64,000 nucleotides of DNA from Hyphomonas atlantica corrig. (lineage in GTDB: Bacteria; Pseudomonadota; Alphaproteobacteria; Caulobacterales; Hyphomonadaceae). Each line of letters opens with the position of its first letter. The first letter of the stretch is position 1. Where the stretch lies: NCBI RefSeq assembly GCF_000682715.1, contig NZ_AWFH01000012.1:248001-312000 (forward strand), written 5' to 3'. Position numbers and translations under genes: made by a program. Shown here in pieces: positions 27,946 through 33,432 of the stretch. The notes beneath the pieces are model-generated. The model saw only the letters and a program-made list of their open reading frames with translations. It was not told the origin of the DNA and did no database searches.

Positions 27946-27978
27946 AGAGGCAACAAAACTCCCCTCCCGCGCGAATGG

Positions 27979-27994
27979 TTAATGATCGCGTAAC
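27979..27994 (+). promoter_or_regulatory. Possible CtrA-binding box
   Basis: TTAA, seven bases, GTAAC: one mismatch from the CtrA consensus TTAA-N7-TTAAC. It lies 59 bases upstream of the phospholipase-like gene. Since the genome encodes ChpT, CtrA control is plausible, but one short site can occur by chance. Confidence 0.3.
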
Positions 27995-28052
27995 TATCAT
28001 TAGGCATTTCTCATCTGATCCAGTTTACATCAGGCGGGAAAGGGAGACTCGG

Positions 28053-29723
28053 ATGTCTCTGCTCGAACGGGTAATTCGCGGCCATCGGTGTCGCTCGACG
28101 CACCACTATATCGCGATGGACGCGCTGTCCCTGATCGCTTCGGATGAGGCGGACAAGTGGAAGGATTTGTTCCTCGTCCATCACGAACATCTGCTGGAAG
28201 GGGCCAAGGCGCCGGATTCCAAGTTCAAGGATTTCAAGAACCACGTCCTGCACATTTCTGAAGGGGAGTGGGGCGGCGCGCCGGGCAAGGCGATGGAATG
28301 GTATGCCACCGCCGTTGATCATTTGCGCCGCAAGCAGTGGAGCAAGGCTGCCTATGCGCTCGGCGTGCTCAGCCACTATTACGCCGACCCGATCCAGCCT
28401 TTCCATACGGGGCAGACGGAAGAAGAAGGCACAATGCACCGCGCGGTCGAGTGGAGCATTGCGAAGTCTCGCGACAAGATTGACGCGCGTATCGAGACGC
28501 TAGGCTATCCCGATGTGCCCGTGCCAGAGGGCGCAGGTTTCGTGGCGGACATGGTGCGCAACGGCGCGCGCCTGTCGCACCCGCACTATCAGACCTTCAT
28601 TGATCACTATGATCTGGACGTCGGCGTGAAGGATCCGCCCGCCGGGCTCGACGAGACCATGTTCGATGCGATTGTGGAGCTGGTGGCTTATGCTACGGCT
28701 GGCTTCGGGGCGATCATTTCCCGCGCCATCGAGGAAGCGGCTGTCAGCGCACCGAAGACCAACTTGACGTTGCAGGGCTATATCGAGACTCTGGACATCC
28801 CGATCCGCTGGGTCACGGCGAAATTGTCCGATGCCGCTGACAAGCGCACAGTCACGCGCATGTACAAGGAATTCCAGAAGACCGGAAAAGTGATCCGCAC
28901 GCTGCCGGACGACGACAAGGAAATCCGCAAGATGCACGCCAAACAGGTTTTGCGCGTGCCACTCAAACAGCTCGACAAACAGGAAATCGGTCCGATCGGG
29001 TCGAAGAATAAGGCCGTGGAAGAGCGCCTGCTGAATGAGCTGATGGCCCAGGAAGAGACAGCGACCGTCGATACGGTCGAAATCGCTTCAGAAGAGGTAG
29101 AGGTTGTTGAGGCGGTCACTGAGCCGGAAACCGCAAAAGACGCGCCGGCTGAAGCCGTAGAAACACCTGCGACCCGGAAAGAGGCACCCCCCAAGGCAGA
29201 GGAAGTTCTGTTCGAGCCTGAGCCCGAAACCGAAGCCCAGCCAGAGCCCGTCACGGCGAAAGCCGAACCAGAGGGTCTTGGCGAAGAGTCCGGCGACATC
29301 GCCCGACGCAGTCGCATCACGCGGGAATCTCCTGTAGTGGAGGCACCAAGCATCGGCAAGAAGACAGCCAAGCGTCTCGGACGCGCGGGCATCACCACCG
29401 TTGGCGACCTGCTTGATTGCGACACGGAGGAAACCGTCTTCCAGGTCGACGTGGCCTATATCGACGTAGACACGCTGAATGACTGGAAAGACCAGACCAT
29501 TCTGATGATGGAAGTGCCGGGCCTGCGTGTGCACGACGCCCAGATCCTTGTCGGCGCGGGAATCCGCAACCGCAAGGAACTGGCCGAAGCGCCGGCACGG
29601 ACCCTGTTCATGCTGGCCAGCGAGTTCCTGCAAACTCCGCAGGGCGACCGCGTGATCCGTGACGACGATTACCTCGCTGAAGAGGAAGTCGAAGAATGGA
29701 TCGAAATGGCGAAGACCGGCTAG
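28053..29723 (+). CDS. Zinc phospholipase C-like protein fused to DUF4332
   Basis: A 556-residue two-part protein. Residues 1-190 have the zinc-dependent phospholipase C / S1-P1 nuclease pattern: H17/H18, D55, H64, H67, and the signature SHYYADPIQPFHTG carrying H108, D112 and H118, then H129 and E133. All three metal sites could be filled. A helical middle is followed by an acidic Glu/Pro/Ala-rich linker (about 335-425) and a C-terminal DUF4332 helix-hairpin-helix-like module (GKKTAKRLGRAGITTVGDLL onward). There is no signal peptide, so it is probably cytoplasmic, unlike classical phospholipase C. The ATG at 28053 follows AAGGGAGA. Substrate (lipid or nucleic acid) unknown. Confidence 0.8.
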   Translation: MSLLERVIRGHRCRSTHHYIAMDALSLIASDEADKWKDLFLVHHEHLLEGAKAPDSKFKDFKNHVLHISEGEWGGAPGKAMEWYATAVDHLRRKQWSKAAYALGVLSHYYADPIQPFHTGQTEEEGTMHRAVEWSIAKSRDKIDARIETLGYPDVPVPEGAGFVADMVRNGARLSHPHYQTFIDHYDLDVGVKDPPAGLDETMFDAIVELVAYATAGFGAIISRAIEEAAVSAPKTNLTLQGYIETLDIPIRWVTAKLSDAADKRTVTRMYKEFQKTGKVIRTLPDDDKEIRKMHAKQVLRVPLKQLDKQEIGPIGSKNKAVEERLLNELMAQEETATVDTVEIASEEVEVVEAVTEPETAKDAPAEAVETPATRKEAPPKAEEVLFEPEPETEAQPEPVTAKAEPEGLGEESGDIARRSRITRESPVVEAPSIGKKTAKRLGRAGITTVGDLLDCDTEETVFQVDVAYIDVDTLNDWKDQTILMMEVPGLRVHDAQILVGAGIRNRKELAEAPARTLFMLASEFLQTPQGDRVIRDDDYLAEEEVEEWIEMAKTG

Positions 29724-32460: not shown

Positions 32461-32883
32461 ATGTTGAACGAGATCACTGCCCATATCGCCCGTCAAAATG
32501 AGTTGTCTGAAGAGACGGCGAAAAGTGCATTGGGTATCGTCCTGAACGCGGCTGAGCGCCAGGATTCACCCTTCGCCACGGCGATGTTCAAGACGGTTCC
32601 CGGTGCTCGCGCCCTGTCGGCCCGTATAGGCAGCGCCATCGGCGCGCCGACCGGCACAATCGCCCGTATGATCGAACAGACACCCGGCGGCAAGCGCGTG
32701 GTCGCGCAATCCATGATCACCGAGCTGCACAAGATTGGCCTGGACCACAAAGCCATCGGCCAGCTGCTGCCGTGCATTTCCACCTATATGGACGAGCATC
32801 ATGGACTGGTCGGGTTTGGCCATCTGGGCGACCTGATCGGCTCTGATCTGGACGCAGTGACGGCGGCGGCCAAAGCCGCCTAA
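32461..32883 (+). CDS. DUF2780-like small helical protein
   Basis: A 140-residue, mostly helical protein without a signal peptide or membrane span. The order of an N-terminal helix, a segment FATAMFKTVPGARAL, and a C-terminal HKIGLDHKAIGQLLPCISTYMD resembles the DUF2780 (VcgC/VcgE-like) pattern of a VPG motif followed by LGL-type helices. This is a weak resemblance. It has its own terminator and is followed by the candidate small RNA. Function unknown. Confidence 0.6.
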   Translation: MLNEITAHIARQNELSEETAKSALGIVLNAAERQDSPFATAMFKTVPGARALSARIGSAIGAPTGTIARMIEQTPGGKRVVAQSMITELHKIGLDHKAIGQLLPCISTYMDEHHGLVGFGHLGDLIGSDLDAVTAAAKAA

Positions 32884-32903: not shown

Positions 32904-32930
32904 AAACCGTCCTTCGGGGCGGTTTTTTTG
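32904..32930 (+). terminator. Rho-independent terminator after the DUF2780-like gene
   Basis: AAACCGTCC pairs with GGGCGGTTT around a stable TTCG tetraloop, followed by further T (seven in a row in total). It lies 21 bases after the stop codon. Confidence 0.92.
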
Positions 32931-32949: not shown

Positions 32950-32974
32950 TGAACCAAATGGATTGTGGTGCGTA
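32950..32974 (+). promoter_or_regulatory. Near-consensus EcfG (general stress sigma) promoter
   Basis: TGAAC at 32950-32954, exactly 16 bases, then CGTA at 32971-32974. The consensus for alphaproteobacterial EcfG/SigT promoters is GGAAC-N16/17-CGTT, so seven of nine key bases match with ideal spacing. It would start transcription near 32981, exactly ahead of the paired C-rich hairpins. Confidence 0.5.
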
Positions 32975-32980
32975 CTGATA

Positions 32981-33094
32981 GGACCTCGCAGCACCCCCCC
33001 CTGACTCACCCCCGTCAGCTGCTGCGTGGGATTACATTGAAGGCCAGATCGGTTTCCCCCTCTCTTCCCCCCAGCCGATCTGGCCCTTTTCTTT
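32981..33094 (+). ncRNA. Candidate small RNA with two C-rich-loop hairpins
   Basis: A transcript of about 112 bases is predicted. Hairpin 1 (32987-33026): CGCAGCA pairs with TGCTGCG, with an inner stem CTGAC/GTCAG, leaving a run of seven unpaired C on the 5' side and a loop TCACCCCC. Hairpin 2 (33042-33085): GGCCAGATCGG pairs perfectly over 11 bp with CCGATCTGGCC around a 22-base C/T-only loop, then CTTTTCTTTT, a rho-independent terminator. No reading frame of note uses this region. The layout, length and promoter type resemble Caulobacter GsrN and other C-rich anti-Shine-Dalgarno sRNAs. The transcription start is inferred from the promoter. Confidence 0.65.
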
Positions 33095-33150
33095 TGAGGG
33101 TAGCCTGTCTAAGTGCTGCGACCAGAACAAAAGAAGCGGGGTTTCGAGAT

Positions 33151-33432
33151 ATGCAGGACAGCACGAATGTGAGACGGGACGAGCAATTGGCCCTTGACCT
33201 GATGGCGGCCATTCGTGCCGATGCTGAAGCTGCCTGTGCCCCGAATACCGTCGAGATGGTATCCGTTACGTTTGATGTTTCATCTGCTGCGACGGACGCG
33301 GCGGACATACAATTTGAGCCGCGGATCGACCGTCGCACAAGAACTGTTCTGTTTACCGGTGGCACGGCCCGTCAGGGCGACCAACCCGTGATGAAGGCTA
33401 CCGCTGTTTACCGGATCATATCGGAAAGCTAG
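33151..33432 (+). CDS. Hypothetical small protein
   Basis: A 93-residue protein of unknown function, from the ATG at 33151. The second half (VEMVSVTFDVSS, RTRTVLFTGGTARQG, MKATAVYRI) has alternating strands that resemble the end of a hotdog-fold thioesterase-like protein, but no catalytic residue can be assigned. The ribosome binding site is weak. The frame is open further upstream through the small-RNA region, but that part has no protein-like composition, so the shorter start is chosen. Confidence 0.5.
   Translation: MQDSTNVRRDEQLALDLMAAIRADAEAACAPNTVEMVSVTFDVSSAATDAADIQFEPRIDRRTRTVLFTGGTARQGDQPVMKATAVYRIISES

Follow-up and report, generated by a model that had tools for sequence, protein, structure and literature searches.

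C-rich loops in small RNAs favour G-rich messages, and in Rhodobacter the Cuckoo RNAs (CcsR1-4) carry a C-rich anti-Shine-Dalgarno loop motif. In Caulobacter, the small RNA GsrN is cleaved to a stable 5' isoform, is stabilised by Hfq and activates katG by pairing with its leader; proximity to ecfG-nepR-phyR is typical of GsrN, but not universal. GsrN carries much of the Caulobacter general stress response (GSR), and in C. crescentus its gene is found away from the GSR locus (PMC5869019). According to the available sections of that paper, BLASTn limited GsrN to Caulobacteraceae and other candidates were proposed from position, promoter and transcripts; the main text does not name Hyphomonas. 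A non-coding RNA of Rhizobium etli, ReC64, is described in the accessible part of a second paper as having an EcfG promoter and lying downstream of a GSR kinase gene (PMC3892343), and we infer that this is the R. etli RNA that Tien et al. counted as GsrN-like. The Cuckoo RNAs are described, in the portion of text available, as co-transcribed with a DUF1127 gene from an RpoHI/RpoHII promoter (PMC10253847). No title on the RNA described here was found in the open-access literature on Hyphomonas small RNA and Hyphomonadaceae EcfG.

The candidate RNA gene lies within a window of 64,000 nucleotides (the whole stretch of DNA analysed; unless a locus handle is given, coordinates refer to its forward strand) from a Hyphomonas-type genome of 3.6 Mb (G000). 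It is placed between genes for a 140-aa protein (32461-32883), which has no Pfam match and is conserved beside the element in Hyphomonas, and a 93-aa protein (33151-33432) with a weak acyl-CoA thioesterase-like match below the Pfam cut-off. The 140-aa gene has its own terminator (32904-32929), an ACCGUCC-UUCG-GGGCGGU-like hairpin followed by seven T, which sets it apart from the RNA gene; a like hairpin was seen by eye after this gene in the inspected relatives that carry the element. Elsewhere in the window, the protein encoded at 27975-29723 combines a zinc-dependent phospholipase C-like domain with a DUF4332 helix-hairpin-helix domain.

The RNA is predicted to be ∼112-115 nt long (32981-33095), with a start placed to within 3 bases on either side, 7 bases past the -10 element. 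Its minimum free energy is -42.1 kcal/mol, compared with -25.96 ± 3.16 for shuffled sequences (z -5.11), and none of 200 shuffles was equally stable. Matches of the structure models R1 and R3, both built with the window RNA, cover 32980-33094, and a search of its own genome with the window RNA gave a single match at E ≤ 0.001. The first hairpin (32984-33029) was reproduced by folding as the earlier note had drawn it, with seven unpaired C and a UCACCCCC loop: an outer stem pairs 32984-32993 with 33020-33029, leaving one unpaired U per side, the seven C form a bulge that is a candidate pairing site (32994-33000), and an inner CUGAC/GUCAG stem carries the loop (33006-33013). The second hairpin (33042-33085) is a predicted intrinsic terminator with a stem of 13 bp, comprising 11 Watson-Crick pairs, as previously counted, followed by a U-G and a U-A pair. 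These last two pairs shorten its loop from the 22 bases claimed to 18 unpaired nucleotides (33055-33072), a second candidate pairing site; the loop consists only of C and U, whereas counting from the 11-bp stem gives 22 bases, among them an A and a G. The terminator tail, CTTTTCTTTT, follows at 33086-33095, with CTTTTCTTT identical in the five nearest genomes.

The promoter described in the earlier note is exact in the sequence: TGAAC (32950-32954; the -35 element extends as TGAACC to 32955), 16 bases and CGTA (-10 element, 32971-32974), which differs from the EcfG/SigT promoter GGAAC-N16-CGTT at two positions. All five nearest genomes share identical GAACCA and GCGTA, and the base before GAACCA, the first of the -35 element, is G in one of them (G003). 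Across the five carriers of one sequence group that includes the window (group A, below), the two boxes are 100% identical over all pairs, while identity is 49% in the spacer between them, 56% in the intergenic DNA on their upstream side and 81% at the end of the preceding coding region. This footprint of identical boxes around a free spacer backs an ECF-type promoter. The window genome shows no enrichment of TGAACC-N15,16-CGTA (six sites versus seven for the reversed control), so no regulon backs the promoter.

The earlier note had described a unit with no protein frame, and this point needs correcting, because the frame of the downstream gene stays open across the RNA as a 155-aa ORF with a GTG start (32965-33432). 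The RNA start and the downstream ATG are 171, 170, 162, 161 and 164 nt apart in the five nearest genomes, a spacing that is not constant modulo 3; the open frame is therefore not conserved, and a coding reading of the RNA stretch was ruled out. The open frame also speaks for the idea that the element acts as a 5' leader or attenuator for the thioesterase-like gene and yields no free RNA, as do its location on the same strand, ∼55 nt 5' of that gene, and a terminator that could be conditional. This is very unlikely, since the downstream gene is present in all 42 Hyphomonas genomes but the motif-bearing element in only 19, the frame distance is not conserved and general inspection of the folds brought no alternative antiterminator to light.

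As a DNA search of 61 genomes gave few true hits, relatives were located through the downstream gene, and carriers were defined as genomes in which the region before this gene holds [GT]GA[AT]C-N16/17-CGTA. Nineteen of the 42 Hyphomonas genomes are carriers, with the motif at the same place. Among named strains, Hyphomonas sp. L-53-1-40 carries the locus. Since the motif defines the carriers, finding none in the remaining regions is not independent evidence; however, it occurs in 19 of 41 upstream regions, whereas 300 single-base shuffles gave an average of 1.4 and never more than eight (a count that leaves out G018 and is uncorrected for kinship). The -35 element is TGAAC in seven carriers and TGATC in 11, together 18 of the 19, and the remaining carrier, G003, has GGAAC-N16-CGTA. 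The spacer is 16 bases long in six carriers and 17 in 13, and the -10 element is CGTA in all 19, as the search pattern demanded.

When each carrier sequence was folded separately, two hairpins were predicted in 19 of 19. The carriers form four sequence groups: A (five, including the window), B (three), C (eight) and D (three). C-rich loops are present in groups A, C and D, and a stretch of at least five unpaired bases with a run of at least three C is found in hairpin 1 of 15 of the 19 carriers. Group B (G009, G013 and G017) features a UUCCUAACCGC loop and no C-rich terminator loop, which counts against a fixed C-rich seed. In the predicted folds of the window and its four nearest genomes, the 5' C-rich loop is flanked by a small hairpin and the 5'-terminal stem; the inner loop is C-rich only in the window genome, the other four having a short loop that is for the most part not rich in C. 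The terminator loop core CCCUCUCUUCCCC is shared by the five nearest genomes (5/5) and by none of the other 14 carriers. Within group A, average identity is 64% for the bulge and inner hairpin and 68% for the terminator loop, the differences arising partly through indels.

R1, which was built from the five group-A RNAs, was run on the 14 genomes of the other groups and, at E up to 0.3, recovered the corresponding RNA in 13; three of these matches are weak (E 0.09-0.1), and G036 was missed. In an alignment of 18 RNAs, pairing holds in 96.7% of cells, both partners are changed in 14 pairs and the covariation score is 0.495, compared with 0.178 for shuffled and 0.04-0.11 for slid alignments, the latter being 28-49% paired; fitting the alignment to the structure favours the structure, and the unfitted single folds agree with it. 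All six modelled pairs of the hairpin 1 outer stem are changed on both sides (98.0% of cells paired), as are eight of the 13 pairs of the terminator stem. The main stems that the earlier note had read from a single sequence thus keep pairing across 18 genomes, with compensatory changes in both. The inner hairpin has no such covariation support, because its stem is confined to group A (5 of the 18 genomes) and hardly varies.

The 23 non-carrier loci gave 13 matches to R3 (E 0.0019 to 1.8) and nine to R1, and CCCC occurs within the 155-base stretch before the downstream gene in four of them. Ten non-carriers of one group (L051, L053, L055, L057-L061, L063 and L069) have a weaker two-hairpin stretch directly 3' of the 140-aa gene and before the downstream gene, with R3 E values of 0.002-0.034, fold energies of -29 to -35 kcal/mol, a GACGC/GCGUC-type stem, a conserved GACC...GGUC inner hairpin and a terminator. 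Neither the carrier-type promoter motif nor a C-rich loop was found in these ten folded stretches, so hairpins and promoter are separable; the stretches may be distant or decayed relatives, or no more than the upstream gene's 3' end. In the upstream regions of G012, G015, G033, G031 and G027, inspection by eye showed a second hairpin of terminator type that lacks the motif, perhaps a remnant of the RNA gene. Such promoterless hairpins in ten and five genomes would suit an inert double terminator, or a C-rich spacer, with a chance promoter match. We regard this as extremely unlikely, given a motif frequency far above the shuffled maximum, promoter boxes that are identical around a free spacer and, in hairpin 1, compensatory changes that terminators do not need.

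A promoter-like footprint, a predicted structure that has evolved by compensatory change and a conserved place in 19 genomes support a self-contained small-RNA unit well, and by these comparative models the element is very probably a conserved, real small-RNA gene. The earlier note was right about the element as a whole and about its style, with small corrections to loop length and open frame, and was too quick on EcfG and on targets.

One cluster of the window genome encodes phyR, nepR, ecfG and a kinase (named by sequence and a NepR match). GGAAC-N16-CGTT occurs within this stress locus before two small lipoprotein-like genes, and also elsewhere. A second nepR-ecfG pair lies beside the stress locus (L112, 9405-10212), and a third nepR is located elsewhere (L113, 5154-5342), with no ecfG noticed beside it. 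NepR was found in 34 of the 42 Hyphomonas genomes, and the sites at their stress-locus genes are mostly GGAAC-N16-CGTT. Uncorrected for kinship, at least two NepR-like genes are present in 19 of 19 carriers versus 6 of 23 non-carriers and, with short fragments omitted, EcfG2-like proteins of at least 50% identity in 19 of 19 versus 8 of 23. EcfG2 was nonetheless set aside as the cognate sigma factor, as [GT]GA[AT]C...CGTA is absent upstream of ecfG2 in 18 regions from relatives (20 were fetched, two being too short; 16 of the 18 come from carriers), and the window genome has at most GGAAC-N15-AGTA there. Only the co-occurrence of EcfG2 and the RNA is thus retained, and it may reflect shared ancestry.

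A comparable RNA was detected in another family. A query from G055 (genus g11, family f4) matched G055 and two more genomes among 99, and in all three g11 genomes GGAAC-N17-CGTA precedes two predicted hairpins with C-rich loops. A GSR kinase is encoded in the fetched flank of two of these three RNAs (L292 and L293), a linkage not found at the window. A promoter of this kind beside a stress kinase in another family favours EcfG, and is the best link to EcfG that we have. With scores of 18-24 bits, two of the g11 RNAs are matched by R1 alone and the third by R3 alone; as R3 reaches 38 bits outside Hyphomonas in whole genomes, homology of the g11 and Hyphomonas RNAs is suggestive only.

Of the earlier claim of an EcfG/SigT promoter, the ECF type therefore stands, while EcfG/SigT itself is plausible but unproven, with CGTA in 19 of 19 carriers and GGAAC-N16-CGTT at the stress locus. 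The RNA could instead be real but transcribed by another ECF sigma factor or by a specialised EcfG paralogue, in answer to a signal other than general stress. The CGTA boxes, the TGATC in 11 of 19 carriers, the second nepR-ecfG pair and the distribution of EcfG2-like proteins all point this way, but G003 and the other-family RNAs combine GGAAC with CGTA, the ecfG2 upstream regions have no promoter of the carrier type and the EcfG2 co-occurrence may be one of descent; on balance we consider this somewhat doubtful.

Order-wide searches, which covered 299 sampled genomes with stricter search filters, yielded further R3 hits, and the 16 loci inspected were kept out of the family, as no motif was found within 70 bases upstream. 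Among the side observations from these searches, three f4 genomes have a two-hairpin element with a GUCUCCUCCCCGA loop (L215, L216 and L218, 1501-1581), with no ECF-like motif within 70 bases upstream. Two f2 genomes feature a double hairpin, apparently directly 3' of a coding sequence, with a CCUCCCCCCC loop and a CUCCUUCCCC(C)UCCC terminator loop (L207 in G287 and L211 in G188, 1501-1595), which makes another C-rich-loop RNA that may be processed from an mRNA 3' end.

Our favoured reading of the Hyphomonas element, which we hold with some confidence, is a free, trans-acting small RNA of ∼112 nt with an ECF promoter, likely of EcfG, whose C-rich loops pair with G-rich leaders. The inferred steps, from transcription and its sigma factor to pairing, its targets and the direction of the effect, would fit together as follows. 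Transcription would start from TGAAC-N16-CGTA with an ECF sigma factor, for which the EcfG (general stress) type is the likeliest, and would end at hairpin 2. The RNA would then offer two unpaired C-rich sites, in the 5' hairpin and in the terminator loop, which would pair with G-rich stretches of mRNA leaders or ribosome-binding sites and so alter the translation of several messages under stress. Blocked initiation would be the default effect, and activation through a leader, as by GsrN on katG, is possible.

The proposed pairing was compared with 424 crudely called genes in 481 kb of the window genome; some of these calls are false ORFs, and one such ORF runs antisense to the window RNA. Mean pairing energies of the loops were -8.4, -8.1 and -10.3 for start regions versus -7.1, -7.1 and -8.2 for coding DNA, in line with the earlier suggestion that the loops pair with ribosome-binding sites. 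Shuffled loops paired more strongly with the same 424 start regions (-9.8, -9.0 and -12.3), which indicates general Shine-Dalgarno complementarity and names no specific target. A katG-type peroxidase match is present in 42 of 42 Hyphomonas genomes, and no shared long G tract was obvious by eye in the katG leaders of 30 of them, several of whose starts are uncertain.

The earlier note had called the RNA GsrN-like. GSR-locus RNAs of family f2 were located by GGAAC...CGTT and a C run, and three of these, all of which match Rfam RF01529 (CC3552, a 106-nt family), served as GsrN seeds for a model, R2. Rfam name, length, place and promoter, compared with the available part of the GsrN paper (PMC5869019), suggest that RF01529 is probably GsrN itself, and point in the same way to f2 being Caulobacteraceae. 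Among the 299 sampled genomes of the order, R2 matches below E 1e-6 were confined to f2. R2 gave no match in G000 at E ≤ 0.01 and none to the window RNA at E up to 10; RF01529 had no match in the window at its gathering threshold or at E up to 10, Rfam as a whole, at gathering and relaxed thresholds, returned nothing relevant within the RNA, and R1 did not match the three GsrN seeds. Overlaps between the two sets of RNAs were insignificant: R2 with two group-B RNAs (E 0.69 and 1.3), R3 with two GsrN seeds (E 0.15 and 0.4) and R1 with another GsrN-type RNA (L160; E 1.5). The GsrN-like anatomy is thus borne out, and membership is not: searches in both directions gave no significant sequence-structure homology, and the window RNA shares the build of GsrN while failing the sequence membership test.

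A strongly diverged true GsrN orthologue that has moved out of the general-stress locus would account for the shared order, anatomy, size, C-rich 5' loop and ECF-type promoter, for the insignificant overlaps and for the lack of an R2 match at E ≤ 0.01 in the window genome, and C. crescentus gsrN offers a precedent for the location (PMC5869019, in the part available). Against the failures of R2, R1 and RF01529 to connect the two, we think this unlikely. Tentatively, the Hyphomonas RNA could instead belong to a separate general-stress RNA family, ranging over two or more families of the Caulobacterales and without sequence kinship to GsrN, in which the terminator loop serves as a second targeting site and the -10 element has settled on CGTA. 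If so, GsrN-type regulation either arose more than once or was rebuilt beyond recognition. A two-loop RNA of GsrN style in Hyphomonas, together with its counterpart in the stress locus of a third family, would mean that the alphaproteobacterial stress response generally produces RNAs with C-rich loops, and the RNA models from Hyphomonas allow this to be tested.

Among described systems, the Cuckoo RNAs are stress-induced alphaproteobacterial small RNAs with C-rich loops, as is proposed for the window RNA, but the latter has an ECF-type promoter and an upstream protein with no Pfam match (E ≤ 0.001), hence no DUF1127, and on these features does not fit the Cuckoo type, for which a DUF1127 gene and an RpoH promoter are the criteria. 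ReC64, compared by its description in the available text, has the EcfG promoter together with a kinase linkage that the window RNA does not share. RF01529 resembles the window RNA in order and anatomy, the sequence-structure match being what is missing. Caulobacter GsrN (CCNA_R0081) has the same size, near 110 nt, an ECF-type promoter and a stem near its 5' end, and both RNAs combine a C-rich unpaired run with a small inner hairpin and a 3' terminator. They differ in the promoter, where the window has T for G in the -35 element and CGTA for CGTT at -10, in location, the window RNA lying on contig C12 of a draft assembly away from the GSR cluster on C1, and in a second C-rich loop, in the terminator, that GsrN does not have. 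Within the searches made the window RNA is new, and a two-loop variant of the GsrN kind describes it best.
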